A DNA stretch of 64,000 bases from an uncultured Methylophilaceae bacterium (lineage in GTDB: Bacteria; Pseudomonadota; Gammaproteobacteria; Burkholderiales; Methylophilaceae): positions 1 through 64,000 of the forward strand of contig CAJQTF010000002.1 in assembly GCA_905618945.1 (NCBI GenBank), given 5' to 3'. Each line of letters opens with the position of its first letter. Position 1 is the first letter of the stretch. Position numbers and translations under genes: made by a program. Of this stretch, positions 33,335 to 40,077 are shown piece by piece. The notes below the pieces were generated by a model, which was not told where the DNA came from, did no database searches, and was given only the letters and a program-made list of their open reading frames with translations.

Positions 33335-35269
33335 ATGAAAAAAAAACAAATAATAGAAAATTTTTTTAAAACCTCAGGGCCTCTCAGCAAGATTGTTAGC
33401 AATTTTCACGAGCGAGAGGATCAAGTTGAGATGGCTAAAATTGTTAATGAAGCAATTGAAGATAAAAATTCATTAATTGTGGAAGCTGGAACGGGTGTAG
33501 GAAAAACTTTCTCTTATTTAGTCCCAGCTTTAATAAATGGTGGAAAAGTAGTCATTTCTACTGCAACTAAGAACTTACAGGACCAATTATTTTTTAAAGA
33601 TATACCAACAATTCGTGACGCCCTTAAAATTCCAATTGATATTAATATCCTTAAGGGGAGATCAAATTATATCTGCCAGTTAAGAATGGAAAATGCATTA
33701 CTTGAAGGTAAATTTTTAAATAAAGCAGATGCAAAATACATTCATGAAATAAAGAAAATATCAGACCATAGTGAGTCAGGAGAAATATCTGAGTTTAATA
33801 ATATTCCAGAAGTATCAACCATATGGCCCTTTGTAACCTCAACTAAAGAAAATTGCTTGGGACAAGATTGTGAATTTTATAAAAGCTGTTTTTTAATAAA
33901 GGCTAGAAAAAAAGCAATCACTTCTGAAGTTGTGATTGTTAATCACCACCTTTTTTTTGCTGATTTAGTTTTAAAAGATGCTGAGTTATCAGAAATTTTG
34001 CCAAAAGCTACCACAGTTATTTTTGATGAAGCCCATCAAATACCCGAAATCGCTTCCATTTTTTTCGGTCAAAATATTTCTACAAATCAAATTATTTACT
34101 TAATTCAAGATGCACAACAGATTCTTTCGCATCATATAAGTGATAAAGAAAAATTAATAGAATTATCACAATCAATAATAGATGCAACTCATTTATTGAG
34201 TTCTTTTTTTGAGATAAGAAATCAAAGGATTGGTATTGAAAAAATAGAAAAATTAGATTCTTTTAAAGGAAAGATAATAGATTTATTAGTTCATCTCGAT
34301 AAACTTTGTAAATTTTTTAATGCTTATAGCGATCAAGACGTCGAATTTAAAAAACTTTTAGAGCGAACTGAAGACATTGTTTCCAAATTAAAAAATTGGA
34401 ATAAACAAAATGAGAAAAATTATGTTTACTGGATTGAGATATTCTTAAAATCGATTCAGTTCAATATAACTCCTATAAGTATTGCGGATAATTTTAGAAA
34501 ATTTCAAGAGTCTAACGAAACAGCTTGGATTTTTACTTCAGCAACGTTAGCAGTAAATTCAAGCTTCGATCATTTTCAATCTTTAATGGGCCTAGAAACT
34601 GCAAATACTAAATTACTTAAAAGCCCTTTTAACTATTCTGAAAATGCATATTTATATGTACCTAAAGATATGCCAGAAACTTCTAATCGATTATTTAATA
34701 ATCATTTAGTGAGCCATATTTACCCACTAATTATTGCCTCCAAGGGAAGAGCATTTATTTTATCAACTAGTATTAAGTCAATGAATGAAATAACCAGTTT
34801 GATAAAAGAGGAATTTGAAAGAAATAATATTAGTTATCCTATTCTCACTCAGGGTAACGGATCTAAAACAAAACTATTGGAGCAATTTAAGAGCCATGGC
34901 AATGCCATTTTAATTGGTTCTCTAAGTTTTTGGGAAGGAGTTGACGTAAGAGGATCTAATCTTTCATTAGTAATAATTGATAAACTCCCATTCCAATCTC
35001 CTGGAGACCCCATATTCGAATCAAAAATTAATATGCTTTCAGACAAAGGTATTAATGCCTTTATGACATTTCAATTACCAAAAGCAATTATTGCACTCAA
35101 ACAAGGAGCCGGAAGGTTGATACGTGATGAAATGGATAAAGGAGTATTGATGATTTGTGATCAGAGAATTGTATCTAAACCCTATGGGAAAAGATTCTGG
35201 CGTAGTCTCCCTGATTTTAAAAGAACGAGAGAGCAAGATGATGTAATAGAATTCCTAAAACACTTATAA
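33335..35269 (+). CDS. DinG/YoaA-type ATP-dependent Fe-S helicase
   Basis: This 644-residue XPD-like superfamily 2 helicase has Walker A (EAGTGVGKTFSYLVPAL, near residue 50), DEAH (residues about 232-235), a Cys cluster for a 4Fe-4S domain (CQLRMENALL, then CLGQDCEFYKSC, residues about 110-190), and the C-terminal motifs GSLSFWEGVDVRG and QGAGRLIRD. It should unwind 5'-overhang or R-loop structures during replication stress. Length and missing exonuclease domain match YoaA/DinG of proteobacteria. YoaA in E. coli works with the HolC clamp-loader subunit. It heads a run with tsaB, rimI and holD. Confidence 0.9.
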   Translation: MKKKQIIENFFKTSGPLSKIVSNFHEREDQVEMAKIVNEAIEDKNSLIVEAGTGVGKTFSYLVPALINGGKVVISTATKNLQDQLFFKDIPTIRDALKIPIDINILKGRSNYICQLRMENALLEGKFLNKADAKYIHEIKKISDHSESGEISEFNNIPEVSTIWPFVTSTKENCLGQDCEFYKSCFLIKARKKAITSEVVIVNHHLFFADLVLKDAELSEILPKATTVIFDEAHQIPEIASIFFGQNISTNQIIYLIQDAQQILSHHISDKEKLIELSQSIIDATHLLSSFFEIRNQRIGIEKIEKLDSFKGKIIDLLVHLDKLCKFFNAYSDQDVEFKKLLERTEDIVSKLKNWNKQNEKNYVYWIEIFLKSIQFNITPISIADNFRKFQESNETAWIFTSATLAVNSSFDHFQSLMGLETANTKLLKSPFNYSENAYLYVPKDMPETSNRLFNNHLVSHIYPLIIASKGRAFILSTSIKSMNEITSLIKEEFERNNISYPILTQGNGSKTKLLEQFKSHGNAILIGSLSFWEGVDVRGSNLSLVIIDKLPFQSPGDPIFESKINMLSDKGINAFMTFQLPKAIIALKQGAGRLIRDEMDKGVLMICDQRIVSKPYGKRFWRSLPDFKRTREQDDVIEFLKHL

Positions 35270-35276
35270 TGTTGCA

Positions 35277-35957
35277 ATGAGAATACTATCTATAGATACT
35301 TGCACTGAAATTATTTCAATTGCTTTGATAGTTGGAAAAGTAATTACTGAGAAGGACTTTCCATTAGGTAAGGATTATTCTGGAAATATTATTCCAGAAA
35401 TTAAAATATTATTAAATGAAAGTAATTTAAAGATACAAGACATAGAGGCTATTGCTTTTGGTGCAGGCCCAGGTTCATTTACTGGTATTAGGGTTGCTTG
35501 CGGCATTGCATATGGAATTGCTTATGCTAATAATTTACCAATTATTGGTATTAATACGCTTGAGGCTTTAGCATTTTTATCAAAGCATGAAAATTCTATT
35601 TCATTTATTGACGCAAGGATGGGCCAAGTTTATTTAGGAATATATCAAAATAGGAATAACACTATCACCTCCCTTATAGAGCCAGGAATTTTTAACCCAA
35701 GCGAATTACCTAAACTACCAAAAATAAAAAAAGCGATAGTTATTGGCTCTGGTCTTAGCCTCTATAAAGAGGAATTAAAATCTCAATATAGCGATATTGA
35801 GCTAGAGTATTTTGAAGATAAATGTTCGCTAGCTTCAGCAATTGGTATTCTTTCAATTGGCCAATTTAGTAATGGGTTTAATTTAAAGAATGCTGCCCCA
35901 ATTTATATTAGGAATAAGGTTGCCCAAACTACAAAAGAAAGGCTTAATAAAAAATAA
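35277..35957 (+). CDS. tsaB: tRNA t6A37 threonylcarbamoyltransferase complex subunit TsaB
   Basis: TsaB is the ASKHA-fold partner of TsaD in t6A formation. The 226-residue protein begins LSIDTCTEIISIALI and has the AFGAGPGSFTGIRVACGIAY signature near residue 64. It is 7 bases after the helicase gene and 8 bases before rimI. Together with tsaC at 3280 it supplies two of the four t6A genes; tsaD and tsaE are not in the window. Confidence 0.95.
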   Translation: MRILSIDTCTEIISIALIVGKVITEKDFPLGKDYSGNIIPEIKILLNESNLKIQDIEAIAFGAGPGSFTGIRVACGIAYGIAYANNLPIIGINTLEALAFLSKHENSISFIDARMGQVYLGIYQNRNNTITSLIEPGIFNPSELPKLPKIKKAIVIGSGLSLYKEELKSQYSDIELEYFEDKCSLASAIGILSIGQFSNGFNLKNAAPIYIRNKVAQTTKERLNKK

Positions 35958-35965
35958 TATTTTAG

Positions 35966-36415
35966 ATGATTAAAACTAATAAAATAGATTTTTTTACTAA
36001 AAAAGATTTGGGTAGGGTTGTTAAAATCGAAAATAAATGTCACCTGACCCCATGGACTAATAAAAATTTTATTGATTCATATGATGCTAAAAATTTATTT
36101 AAGGTTTTAAAAGATGAAACTGATATTATCGGTTATTACATTGCTTTATTTGCATCAGATGAATGTGAATTATTAAATATAACTGTAAAGTCAGAGTTAC
36201 AAAAAAATGGCTTTGGAGAGTTGATGCTTAAAGATCTTTTTAATGAATGCAGAAATGCAAATATTGTGAATATCTTTCTTGAGGTCAGAAGATCTAATTT
36301 ATTAGCAATTCGATTGTATAAAAATAATGGATTCAATGAGATAGGAATTCGGAATAATTATTATCAAAATAGAGGCGGCAAAGAAGATGCAATTTTAATG
36401 GGCTTGGCTATATGA
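35966..36415 (+). CDS. rimI: ribosomal-protein-S18-alanine N-acetyltransferase
   Basis: This 149-residue GNAT acetyltransferase has CHLTPWTNKNFIDS near residue 26, the acetyl-CoA loop LQKNGFGELMLKDL near residue 79, and LEVRRSNLLAIRLYKNNGF near residue 109 with the family Asn/Tyr ending in GKEDAILMGL. RimI acetylates the N-terminus of S18. The stop overlaps the start of the probable holD gene by 4 bases. Confidence 0.92.
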   Translation: MIKTNKIDFFTKKDLGRVVKIENKCHLTPWTNKNFIDSYDAKNLFKVLKDETDIIGYYIALFASDECELLNITVKSELQKNGFGELMLKDLFNECRNANIVNIFLEVRRSNLLAIRLYKNNGFNEIGIRNNYYQNRGGKEDAILMGLAI

Positions 36416-36900
36416 ACAAGGAAATAATAAAAGAGTCATTAATATACGATGAGCTCGACTTAAGTCCGATATGGATAACCCTTCCAAAAAAAGTTGAAGT
36501 TGAAAGCGTTCGATTACCAACTAATTCATCTATATTTTATTTAAAAAAAATTAAATTAAATGATCTTAATGTTTTGTTTATAGCTCTAATTTCTCATTCG
36601 TCCGATAATGGCGAATTAGAATTATTTAAAAAAATTAGTGTCTATTTGGATACACTCTCTGATAAATTAAATCAGCTACAACCTCTAAAGATAATCCAAG
36701 AGTTGGAACTTGCAAGTGAAATCGAATCTAGCGAGTATTTAATCTTTCTTGAACAGGGCCTAGATAAATTAATAGAGAAAGAAAATTTAACTATTCCATA
36801 CATTTCGTCTGTTTCTTTAAAAGAAATGGTTGAAAACCCAGAGAAAAAGAAAAAATTGTGGCAAGATATCAAAAAATTAACAAAATCAATAAAGCAATAA
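36412..36900 (+). CDS. holD: probable DNA polymerase III psi subunit (divergent HolD)
   Basis: This 162-residue protein lines up with E. coli HolD (137 residues, compared from memory) at both ends. The N-terminal LDLSPIWITLPKK (residues 15-27) matches the chi-binding LGITQWSLRRP stretch, and the C-terminal SLKEMVENPEKKKKLWQDI (135-153) matches TDLRANPTARAALWQQI. The middle is a beta/alpha domain with LNVLFIALIS. In E. coli holD is beside rimI; here it is just downstream and overlaps rimI by 4 bases, which supports the call. Psi bridges the clamp loader and chi/SSB. Identity in the middle is low. Confidence 0.68.
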   Translation: MNKEIIKESLIYDELDLSPIWITLPKKVEVESVRLPTNSSIFYLKKIKLNDLNVLFIALISHSSDNGELELFKKISVYLDTLSDKLNQLQPLKIIQELELASEIESSEYLIFLEQGLDKLIEKENLTIPYISSVSLKEMVENPEKKKKLWQDIKKLTKSIKQ

Positions 36901-36912
36901 TAGATAATAATT

Positions 36913-38142
36913 ATGCGCGCATCTAGATTCTATATTTCCACTCTTAAAGAGGCCCCAGCGGAGGCTGAACTAATTAGTCATAAACTAATGATTCGTTCAG
37001 GCTTAATTCGCCGACTAGGATCTGGACTCTATAGTTGGATGCCAATGGGCCTAAAGATATTAAGAAAGATTGAATCTATAATTAGATTAAAAATGAATGA
37101 AGCTGGGGCAATTGAGTTACTTATGCCTGCAATTCAACCATCGGAGCTTTGGGAAGAATCTGACCGATGGGATGTCTTTGGACCTCAAATGCTTAAAATA
37201 AAAGATAGGCATGATCGACTTTTTTGTTTTGGTCCTACGCATGAAGAAGTAATAACCGATATTGTAAGAAAAGAAATTAATAGCTATAAGCAGCTACCTA
37301 TTAACTTTTATCAGATACAAACTAAGTTTAGAGATGAAATAAGACCGAGGTTTGGCGTGATGCGTGCAAGAGAGTTTTTAATGAAAGATTCGTATTCATT
37401 TCATACAGATATCGATTGCTTAAAAAATACTTATGAAAAAATGTACAAGACATATAGTGAAATCTTTGAAACTATAGGGTTAAATTTTAGGGCTGTTCAA
37501 GCTGACAATGGAGCAATAGGTGGTGATGGTTCGCATGAATTTCATGTTTTAGCAGATTCTGGTGAAGATGAACTTGTTTATAGCGAAGAGACAGATTTTG
37601 CAGCCAATAGCGAAGTTGCAAAAAATCATCCCGATCGAGATAAATTAAAAACATGTCGTGGAATTGAAGTTGGACATATTTTTCAATTAGGAACAAAGTA
37701 TTCTGAGGCAATGAAAGCAGAATTCATTGATGAATCAGGAAAGCCAAAACCTTTATTGATGGGTTGTTATGGCATTGGTGTTTCAAGAATTGTGGCTGCA
37801 GCTATAGAGCAAGGCCATGATGAAAGAGGAATTATATTTCCAAGCTCTATAGCTCCATTTGAAGTAATTATCACACCAATTGGCTATGATAAAAGTGAGG
37901 AAGTTAAAAAAGTTACAGACTCTATTTATAATCAACTATTAGAATTGGGTTGCGATGTTATTTTGGATGATAGAGGTTTAAGGCCAGGGGTAATGTTTAG
38001 TGAAGCAGAGCTGCTAGGAATTCCTCATCGCATAACGATAAGTGATAAAACGATTGAAGCAAAGAAGGTAGAATATAAAAAAAGAGAAGTAGAAAATTCT
38101 AAGCTGATTGATTTAGAATCTTTAGAAGAATATTTAATATAA
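36913..38142 (+). CDS. proS: prolyl-tRNA synthetase lacking the INS editing domain
   Basis: ProRS charges tRNA-Pro. The catalytic core is complete: motif 1 ([20 protein letters not shown]), motif 2 ([20 protein letters not shown]), motif 3 ([19 protein letters not shown]) and the anticodon-binding domain (from about residue 310; [20 protein letters not shown]). Bacterial-type ProRS is about 570 residues, with an approximately 160-180 residue INS domain between motifs 2 and 3 that hydrolyses Ala-tRNA-Pro. Here only 409 residues remain; DFAANSE is joined by a 12-residue linker directly to [18 protein letters not shown]. Editing must then be absent or supplied in trans. Confidence 0.93.
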
Positions 38143-38144
38143 CC

Positions 38145-39017
38145 TTATTTTAGCACTTTATAGGCATGGTAACTTCCAAATTCTCCATCCGAATCTAAGT
38201 AGATAAAGTAGTAACCATTTAAGGTATAACCTAGGCCATTGAAATGATTTTGCGCTCTAATTTTTAAAGATTTAGGAAGTGCACTTGATCCTTGATATTT
38301 CCCATCTTTGTTATAGATAAGAAATCTTTTATGATCGATATCTAATAAAATTAACTCTTCACCAGGCTTACCAGTAAACGCTACAAAATGTGAGGCAACA
38401 TCATGATGCATTACATTAGGCGTATCAAAGTCCAATTTAATTTCTTTTTGTAATTTTTTTGATTTTCCATCTAATACAAAAACGCGATTAGAGTTTTCTT
38501 GCTTTGCATAATATAGGTTATTTTTTGAATCATAAGTTGGCATCGTTCCTGCACTACCAAATGACGCTGAAGGCTGAGAAACGACCTCTGATTTTGCTGT
38601 CAACAAACCCTTTTCATCTAATTCCAATGAAAATATACCTGTCATTGGTGCAAATCCGGCAGCAGTTGATACATTGTATGTAATTGTTTCTAGCTTAAAA
38701 GTTTTTTCATTAAAGTAAATTGACCGATTATCAAATCCAGCCCTTGTAGACTCTATGTATTTGCCATTTTCATCGAACGTGTGAATAAGAGATTTTGATA
38801 TTGGAGCCTCATAGTCAGAACCGCGAGCCGCCAAGCCACCATCTGCAATGTAATATTTTTTCTCACCTGGAACATAGGCGACAGTTTGAGGCCTAGTGGT
38901 TGGTTTTTTCGTAAGGTTTATTTTAAAAATAAATTCAGCATTTTCATTTATCTCAGCATATGTATAACTGATATTTAAAATTGTTAAGCAAACTAATATA
39001 AGTATATTTTTGAGCAT
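38145..39017 (-). CDS. exported beta-propeller-like protein of unknown function
   Basis: I do not recognise this 290-residue protein with certainty. It has a signal peptide (residues 1-21) and repeated short segments typical of propeller blades (YYIADGGLAARG, MPTYDSKNNLYYAKQENSNR, ILLDIDHKRFLIYNKDGKYQ, YFIYLDSDGEFG), as in SMP-30/gluconolactonase or NHL-like proteins. No catalytic site could be assigned. It is convergent with proS (2-base gap) and 22 bases downstream of queA on the same strand. Confidence 0.6.
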   Translation of the reverse strand: MLKNILILVCLTILNISYTYAEINENAEFIFKINLTKKPTTRPQTVAYVPGEKKYYIADGGLAARGSDYEAPISKSLIHTFDENGKYIESTRAGFDNRSIYFNEKTFKLETITYNVSTAAGFAPMTGIFSLELDEKGLLTAKSEVVSQPSASFGSAGTMPTYDSKNNLYYAKQENSNRVFVLDGKSKKLQKEIKLDFDTPNVMHHDVASHFVAFTGKPGEELILLDIDHKRFLIYNKDGKYQGSSALPKSLKIRAQNHFNGLGYTLNGYYFIYLDSDGEFGSYHAYKVLK

Positions 39018-39039
39018 GTGATTTCCTAATTTAATTTAA

Positions 39040-40077
39040 TTAGTCATTATTTATAAATTTTTGTTCAATAAACATCGCATCCCCATAACTAAAGAACCGA
39101 TAATTTTTTTTTATTGCATGACTATACATTTTTTTTGTAAATTCATAACCAGCAAAAGCAGACACTAACATAAGTAATGTACTTTTAGGTAGATGAAAAT
39201 TAGTAAAAAGACTATCAACTAGTTTAAATTTATATCCCGGCTTTATAAAAATTTTTGTTTCTTGATGGCCGGTCATAATTTCATCATTAATACATGCGCT
39301 CTCTAACGCTCGTAAAACTGTCGTACCTATTGCAATTATTCGACCACCATTTTTTTTTGCCGTCTCAATTTTATTTTTTGTTTGATTTGTAATCTCAAAT
39401 TTTTCACTATGCATATTATGTTGATCTATATCTATGACCTTAACTGGTTGGAATGTTCCAGAACCGACATGAAGTGTTATAAAAGTATAATTAATAGTAT
39501 TTTGATTAAATAATTCGAAATCACCCTCTGAAAAATGAAGCCCCGCAGTTGGTGCTGCAATAGCGCCTTTATTTTTTGCAAATACAGTTTGATATCTATC
39601 AATATCAGCGACTTCATCTGGGCGATTTATGTATGGAGGGAGAGGAACATGCCCATTTAAATCCATTAACTCGTGAAATGACCCTTGATTGAGTTGTATT
39701 AAAAATAAATTTTCACTTCTTTCAAGAATTTTAACGACATAATTATTTGAAAGTATTATTTTTAAATCCATATTTATTTTTTTTGAAGATTTAATCATTG
39801 CTAATGCTTTTTGATTATCAACAACTTGCTCAATTAAAATTTCAATCTTACCGCCAGTCTCTTTTTGACCAAATAACCTAGCCTTTATAACTTTAGTATT
39901 ATTAAAAATGAGTAAATCATTTGGGCGTACAAGGCTTATAAAATTTTGAAATGATAAATCTTGAAGTTTCTGAAGAAAAGGGTTGGTCACTAATAACTTG
40001 CTATCACCACGATTTTTCGGAGGATATTGGGCTATTAATTTATTTGGTAATTCGTAATTAAAATTTTCAATATTCAT
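39040..40077 (-). CDS. queA: S-adenosylmethionine:tRNA ribosyltransferase-isomerase
   Basis: QueA transfers the ribosyl group of S-adenosylmethionine to preQ1 in the tRNA wobble position to make epoxyqueuosine. The 345-residue protein shows FNYELPNKLIAQYPPKNRGDSKLL at the N-terminus (given here in part: ELPNKLIAQYPP), FNNTKVIKARLFGQK, GHVPLPPYINR near residue 138, and AAPTAGLHFSEG, ITLHVGSGTFQPV and MHSEKFEI, all invariant. Its start is 37 bases from the divergent tRNA-Leu gene. tgt is not adjacent. Confidence 0.96.
   Translation of the reverse strand: MNIENFNYELPNKLIAQYPPKNRGDSKLLVTNPFLQKLQDLSFQNFISLVRPNDLLIFNNTKVIKARLFGQKETGGKIEILIEQVVDNQKALAMIKSSKKINMDLKIILSNNYVVKILERSENLFLIQLNQGSFHELMDLNGHVPLPPYINRPDEVADIDRYQTVFAKNKGAIAAPTAGLHFSEGDFELFNQNTINYTFITLHVGSGTFQPVKVIDIDQHNMHSEKFEITNQTKNKIETAKKNGGRIIAIGTTVLRALESACINDEIMTGHQETKIFIKPGYKFKLVDSLFTNFHLPKSTLLMLVSAFAGYEFTKKMYSHAIKKNYRFFSYGDAMFIEQKFINND

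Follow-up and report, generated by a model that had tools for sequence, protein, structure and literature searches.

The predominant bacterial form of prolyl-tRNA synthetase (ProRS), represented by the E. coli-type enzymes (NF006625 / TIGR00409), has motifs 2 and 3 separated by INS, a domain with editing function. The loss of editing domains in host-restricted organisms was reportedly described by Melnikov in 2018, a work cited in PMC7373986 and PMC11415595. The INS superfamily is described as uniting the INS, YbaK, and ProXp families (PMC11295145), and 34% of bacteria are reported to have a ProRS without a functional editing domain, many of them relying on ProXp-ala (PMC3973320). Caulobacter is reported to employ both ProXp-ala and YbaK (PMC3973320, PMC6344894), while PMC4014445 describes Mollicutes as having neither cis-editing nor homologues of YbaK, ProX, or AlaX. 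The loss of editing is tied mainly to intracellular, parasitic, or host-restricted organisms (PMC7373986, PMC11415595). Removal of INS from the E. coli enzyme is reported to lower amino acid activation 1200-fold, with no rescue by INS supplied in trans (PMC12547528).

The locus analyzed here differs from each of these systems. Its ProRS shares the core, the anticodon-binding domain, and the motifs with the E. coli type, but has a 14-residue linker instead of INS. The enzymes of Caulobacter crescentus and Rhodopseudomonas palustris (2i4l) and the family NF008979, in which INS is truncated, are likewise short and have no working editing domain; however, Caulobacter has ProXp-ala and YbaK according to the cited reports, whereas the short-form genomes of the genus under study show no INS-fold protein. 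The Mollicutes ProRS, as described in PMC4014445, also lacks cis-editing, but it is an archaeal/eukaryotic-type enzyme of parasites, while the genus studied here has a beta-type ProRS, consists of small-genome aquatic bacteria, and includes an INS-bearing sister clade. With host-restricted organisms it has in common that editing was lost in reduced genomes.

The proS gene and its product

The window, i.e., the whole stretch of 64,000 nucleotides from an uncultured Methylophilaceae bacterium, contains proS as a single unbroken open reading frame (ORF) of 409 codons and a stop (Table 1). Sequence comparisons confirmed the central claim of the initial annotation, namely that this continuous frame encodes an intact E. 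coli-type ProRS from which the whole INS (Ala-tRNA-Pro editing) domain is gone. The protein matched the NCBIfam profile for proline--tRNA ligase, NF006625 (profile length, 559), with 641.5 bits against a cut-off of 558, in two stretches, the best of which includes residues 1 to 239. A Pfam search of the protein found solely the class II core and the anticodon-binding domain, i.e., the bacterial-type arrangement of class II core and HGTP anticodon domain, and no match to PF04073, the INS fold. The nearest solved structures were the full-length bacterial ProRS 8w8j/5ucm (572 bits), with the R. palustris enzyme 2i4l behind them (385 bits). When aligned with the 572-aa ProRS of E. coli and with the nine full-length enzymes of the sister clade (561 to 566 aa), the protein had no INS segment between motifs 2 and 3, and 14 residues led from DFAANSE to RGIEVG, not 12 as first counted; the missing part, initially put at about 160 to 180 residues, amounts to 150 to 157 relative to the sister clade. 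An AlphaFold model of the enzyme had a mean pLDDT of 71.5, with low values across much of the N-terminal half, and a Foldseek search with this weak model returned ProRS as the best matches at poor rmsd; neither was used as evidence.

Table 1. Coordinates of proS, its domains, and its neighbors in the window.
Feature	Position	Strand	Evidence
proS, 409-aa bacterial-type ProRS without INS	36913..38142	+	ORF, NCBIfam, Pfam, structure matches
Class II core PF00587, residues 95-300; INS interrupts the same domain in full-length relatives	37195..37812	+	Pfam
14-residue linker, residues 235-248, at the INS site of relatives	37615..37656	+	Alignments; coordinates by arithmetic
Anticodon-binding domain PF03129, residues 318-408; contains clade-specific residues 321 and 363 (two of three)	37864..38136	+	Pfam, alignment
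ORF of 162 aa immediately before proS, without Pfam match	36412..36900	+	Pfam, synteny
Syntenic upstream genes (dinG-like, tsaB, rimI-like)	33335..36415	+	Synteny; Pfam assigns the rimI-like product to GNAT
Downstream neighbors in conserved order: ORF of 290 aa (no Pfam match) and queA-like	38145..40077	-	Pfam, synteny

The window enzyme also scored 546.1 bits against NF008979 (PRK12325), which we take to be the alphaproteobacterial short ProRS, just under the cut-off of 550; its phylogenetic place is inside beta-type ProRS, apart from the phylum's remaining short ProRS. Two of the latter aligned without a DYAAN segment at the junction, unlike the window enzyme.

The closest named record was that of Methylophilaceae bacterium AH-578-O07, which is 94% identical. 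The dN/dS of the gene against two close relatives was approximately 0.05 to 0.07 (dN 0.032 / dS 0.63 and dN 0.052 / dS 0.75). Since the same architecture is shared by 17 genomes, the window's own included, and dN/dS is this low, proS is a maintained gene, and an assembly artefact as the source of the short form was rejected because the 17 genomes agree. The short ProRS likely charges tRNA-Pro with proline, as it is encoded by the sole proS found in all 17 genomes that carry it and is under strong purifying selection.

Distribution and origin in the genus

Among 31 genomes of the genus, the short ProRS (409 to 411 aa) was found in 17 and the full form (561 to 566 aa) in nine. The remaining five comprise G029, with a frame-broken copy of short-form spacing, and G002, G009, G012, and G025, which are 60 to 69% complete and in which no proS was detected. 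The G029 copy lies in a two-contig assembly that is 47% complete (L219), and its frame breaks are probably assembly errors. A further proS-like match in 16 of the 17 short-form genomes (21 to 25% identity, in a frame of 636 to 678 aa) was taken as ThrRS, so that the available sequence of the 17 genomes holds no second, full-length proS of the kind that the initial annotation had considered. The genomes of the genus measure 0.7 to 1.4 Mb, a size with which the genus fits the streamlined pelagic Methylophilaceae that PMC6794327 describes as plankton. The labels beta, gamma, and alpha on the compared genomes were inferred from kinship and enzyme type. On the identity of the genus, we infer that it is the Methylopumilus/OM43 group.

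We built the main ProRS tree from 75 chosen rows and 391 core columns, with the junction and INS excluded. The 17 short ProRS formed one clade (100/97) and the nine full ProRS another (100/99), and these two joined as sisters with full support (100/100) among the beta-type ProRS. A branch of 1.28 separated them from the short enzyme L135 and from nine further short ProRS of the phylum, which we take as alphaproteobacterial. The N-terminal (230) and C-terminal (161) columns gave the same pairing, with SH-aLRT values of 98 and 99, respectively; a chimaera of two ProRS was therefore rejected, as both parts place the clade alike.

The gene order dinG-tsaB-rimI-ORF-proS-ORF290-queA was identical in the regions from nine full-form and nine short-form genomes, and two further short loci (L043 and L045) have the same order around proS. 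Some of these names are assumed, dinG-like and tsaB being what we take the upstream genes to be from their sequence and the downstream gene being presumably queA-like. A tree of five neighboring proteins, which used 13 of the 17 short-form genomes and lost one outgroup row (L030) for lack of data, gave the same split of 13 short versus nine full genomes. Of the two unnamed ORFs, the 290-aa one (38145 to 39017, minus strand) has no Pfam match and is 57 to 70% identical to its counterparts in the genus beyond the closest relatives. The 162-aa ORF upstream of proS is fast evolving, yet every genus region that we compared has an ORF at this position. In the nine full-length genomes its place is filled by an ORF of 141 to 149 aa, with homology detected by BLAST in three of the nine, and for this reason it is not the excised INS. 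A split gene with INS next door, a possibility raised by the initial annotation, was rejected on the same ground and because the ORF has no Pfam match.

A single loss of INS in the genus, in place and without transfer, is well supported by these comparisons, since the 17 short enzymes are one clade, sister to the nine full ones; both belong to the beta type, a long way from the short ProRS found elsewhere in the phylum. The gene tree, the synteny, and the neighbor-gene tree thus bear out the earlier proposal of domain loss as opposed to gene replacement, and the trees reject a lineage that never had INS as well as horizontal acquisition from the other short ProRS. That proS came from some other INS-less lineage, such as one of the Alphaproteobacteria, is extremely improbable: short ProRS do exist elsewhere in the phylum, and some small genomes scattered over the class have them too, but the trees, the synteny, and the AU tests described below (p 0.0006 and p 0.0097) argue against it, and no donor lineage whose short ProRS nests with the short clade of the genus to the exclusion of its full sisters was seen.

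Editing functions and the synthetic site

We searched the genomes with PF04073, a profile that presumably covers the INS, YbaK, and ProXp families. Each of the nine full-length genomes had exactly one match, always inside the ProRS frame, and the other 22 of the 31 genomes had none; among the genomes at least 90% complete, the profile matched in 7/7 full-length versus 0/7 short-form genomes, one of the latter being a single contig. At E<=10 the 17 short-form genomes still gave no match, while two full genomes run alongside were positive. Free-standing INS-fold deacylases of the ProXp-ala / YbaK type were thus not found in any of the 17 short-form genomes, within the completeness of their assemblies. 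In other Methylophilaceae genera, a free-standing PF04073 frame of 168 to 169 aa was present in three of six genomes (G032, G035, and G036). All nine INS domains of the sister clade keep Lys279 and His369, the latter being, as we assume, a residue with a role in INS editing, and the K279A change is reported to be editing-defective (PMC3973320). The initial annotation had left the choice between tolerance of errors and a trans-editor outside the window; tolerance may still apply, and the second option lost its INS-fold candidates, none being found in the 17 genomes within their completeness. An INS-fold editor hidden in unassembled sequence, or too divergent for the profile, is quite improbable. 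The window assembly is 77.6% complete, and extreme divergence does escape profile searches, but the zero counts in the seven most complete short-form genomes and in all 17 at the relaxed threshold, obtained with a profile that finds 9/9 sister INS domains, stand against it.

The AlaRS/ThrRS editing domain PF07973 matched in 30 of the 31 genomes, twice in 24 of them, and its persistence indicates that the loss of editing is specific and not part of a general decay. Among its 54 matches, 51 lie in frames of 577 to 898 aa, a length that suits AlaRS and ThrRS. Shorter frames hold the other three (G013, G012, and G000), which by eye read as pieces of one or the other of these enzymes, and no free-standing AlaX was seen. 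In the window genome (G000), the ThrRS-type editing frame on contig C27 (L222:364-1344) stops after 326 aa, and the ORF that comes next is unrelated to it; this contig is perhaps misjoined. PF02580 (D-Tyr-tRNA deacylase) matched none of the 31 genomes, whichever form of proS they carry. These results bear on the idea that a trans-editor of another fold clears Ala-tRNA-Pro. An Ala-tRNA deacylase of an unrelated fold (OB-fold) is reported from eukaryotes (PMC12021450), but the lack of PF02580 matches, the confinement of PF07973 to AlaRS/ThrRS-size frames and pieces with no AlaX seen, and the presence in full-length genomes of a counterpart to the gene adjoining proS make such an enzyme unlikely.

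We then compared the short and full enzymes position by position. Only 237, in the linker, and 321 and 363, both in the anticodon-binding domain, combine fixation in the short clade (at least 16 of 17) with rarity among full-length enzymes (at most 2 of 47); the catalytic core contains no such position. A set of 38 full beta/gamma ProRS has 157 columns with a conservation of at least 95%; at a level of at least 90%, the short clade retains 137 of these columns and the full sister clade 145. T109, E111, R140, E142, and C443 (E. coli numbering), which we take to be residues of the pocket, are identical in the 17 short, the nine full sister, and the 38 other full enzymes; other positions listed, e.g., 169, 173, 206, and 405, are variable. 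In the 75-row tree the short clade does not have the longer stem (0.18, against 0.19 for the full clade). Given the unchanged pocket positions and the location of the three fixed positions outside the catalytic core, nothing points clearly to a remodeling of the synthetic site for the exclusion of alanine. An active site that evolved sufficient rejection of alanine to do without editing is somewhat less improbable than a trans-editor of another fold, but still unlikely. A review reports that some bacterial-type ProRS without an editing domain have gained specificity (PMC11415595), and T137, beside motif 2, is M in nine of the 17 short enzymes and in none of the nine full sisters, the same position being W in eight of the nine other short ProRS of the phylum. 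However, the window enzyme keeps T137, the five pocket residues named above do not differ between short and full enzymes, and the fixed changes are those of the linker and of the anticodon-binding domain, outside the catalytic core.

We favor, with a probability of roughly 70%, the reading that INS-family proofreading of Ala-tRNA-Pro is gone and that accuracy would rest on the synthetic site and on tolerance. Free-standing INS-family deacylases would most simply have been lost first in the genus, before the INS domain; INS was then excised cleanly from proS, in place and once, in one sub-clade, leaving the 14-residue linker. The shortened enzyme, the only prolyl-tRNA synthetase found in these genomes, stays under strong purifying selection, and INS-fold post-transfer editing of Ala-tRNA-Pro (or Cys-tRNA-Pro) would no longer remain. 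The accuracy of proline codons would then depend on the synthetic active site, on the ratios in the amino acid pool, and on tolerance of residual Ala-for-Pro errors. As the proofreading domain is lost and no known backup proofreader was found, short-form cells may tolerate alanine-for-proline errors; the loss of editing activity and this tolerance are both read from gene content. The proline content of the five neighboring proteins showed no consistent trend, being higher in the short clade in three and lower in two; tolerance has thus left no visible proteome signature in them.

Short ProRS in other lineages and the value of proofreading

Clean INS deletions also occur outside the genus, in two named metagenome-assembled genomes of Rhodocyclaceae (L050) and Legionellaceae (L051), whose genomes (1.7 and 1.4 Mb, respectively) have no PF04073 match. 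A class-wide sample of 369 genomes, searched at E<=1e-130, a threshold that would miss more divergent short ProRS, yielded 15 short ProRS, that of the window and 14 others (L200 to L213), the latter all from genomes of 0.9 to 2.0 Mb. Their junctions are unlike that of the window enzyme, several keeping the SPDGxG stretch that in full enzymes comes after INS and others not. The class tree retained 87 of 101 aligned rows, the 14 dropped ones thinning near relatives, and on it, when L135 and the rows of alphaproteobacterial type are excluded, the short and full forms require five changes. A single clade of the 27 short rows was rejected by the AU test (p 0.0006), as was a clade uniting the short ProRS of the genus with L050 (p 0.0097), a pair named after the tree had been seen. 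The number of loss events among the other short forms is unsure owing to long branches.

All 14 of the other short-form genomes are at most 2.0 Mb, versus five of the 20 listed genomes without a match (Fisher p 1e-5), the other 334 without a match being outside this comparison. In a second comparison, 10 of 86 class genomes with a ProRS match were at most 2.0 Mb, in a sample that was filtered for completeness and has frames of at least 522 aa among the matches listed, the weakest matches lying outside these. A link of the short ProRS to small genome size is suggestive only. Four genomes of 1.0 to 1.2 Mb in the same class keep INS (frame, 577 to 583 aa), so a small genome alone does not force its loss. 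Two genomes that are 100% complete, G107 (L160; 2.6 Mb) and G123 (L135; 1.9 Mb), have short ProRS in open frames of 446 and 436 aa, respectively, and no PF04073 match; the lack of both INS and a PF04073 editor is hence not unique to the clade of the genus. Both are possible further cases without Ala-tRNA-Pro editing. A broader proposition, which we put forward as tentative and hold to be somewhat more doubtful than not, is that genome reduction has repeatedly and independently led to ordinary beta/gamma-type ProRS losing INS completely, also in free-living plankton, and that this leaves permanently unedited proline decoding and a core that would not need INS for catalysis.

The organisms in which editing loss has been reported are mainly intracellular or host-restricted, whereas PMC6794327 describes streamlined pelagic Methylophilaceae as plankton. 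Within the open-access literature, with subscription papers mostly outside it, we found no report of the present case among papers on ProRS or editing in Methylophilaceae and in streamlined or free-living small-genome bacteria, and the words "synthetase" and "tRNA" do not occur in the main text of PMC6794327.

The gene, its single origin in the genus, and the absence of INS-fold matches are well supported. With them, a probable loss of synthetase editing, of a kind linked chiefly to parasites and symbionts, comes to light in a genus of aquatic bacteria with small genomes. Because the sister clade keeps INS, has the same gene order, and shares with the short clade the PF07973 editing domains, the two clades form a matched natural experiment on the value of proline proofreading. 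The finding also concerns mechanism: deletion of INS is reported to cost the E. coli enzyme 1200-fold in amino acid activation (PMC12547528), yet here nature removed INS with the core almost unchanged. A comparison of the sister enzymes would reveal how the coupling between INS and the core became dispensable.
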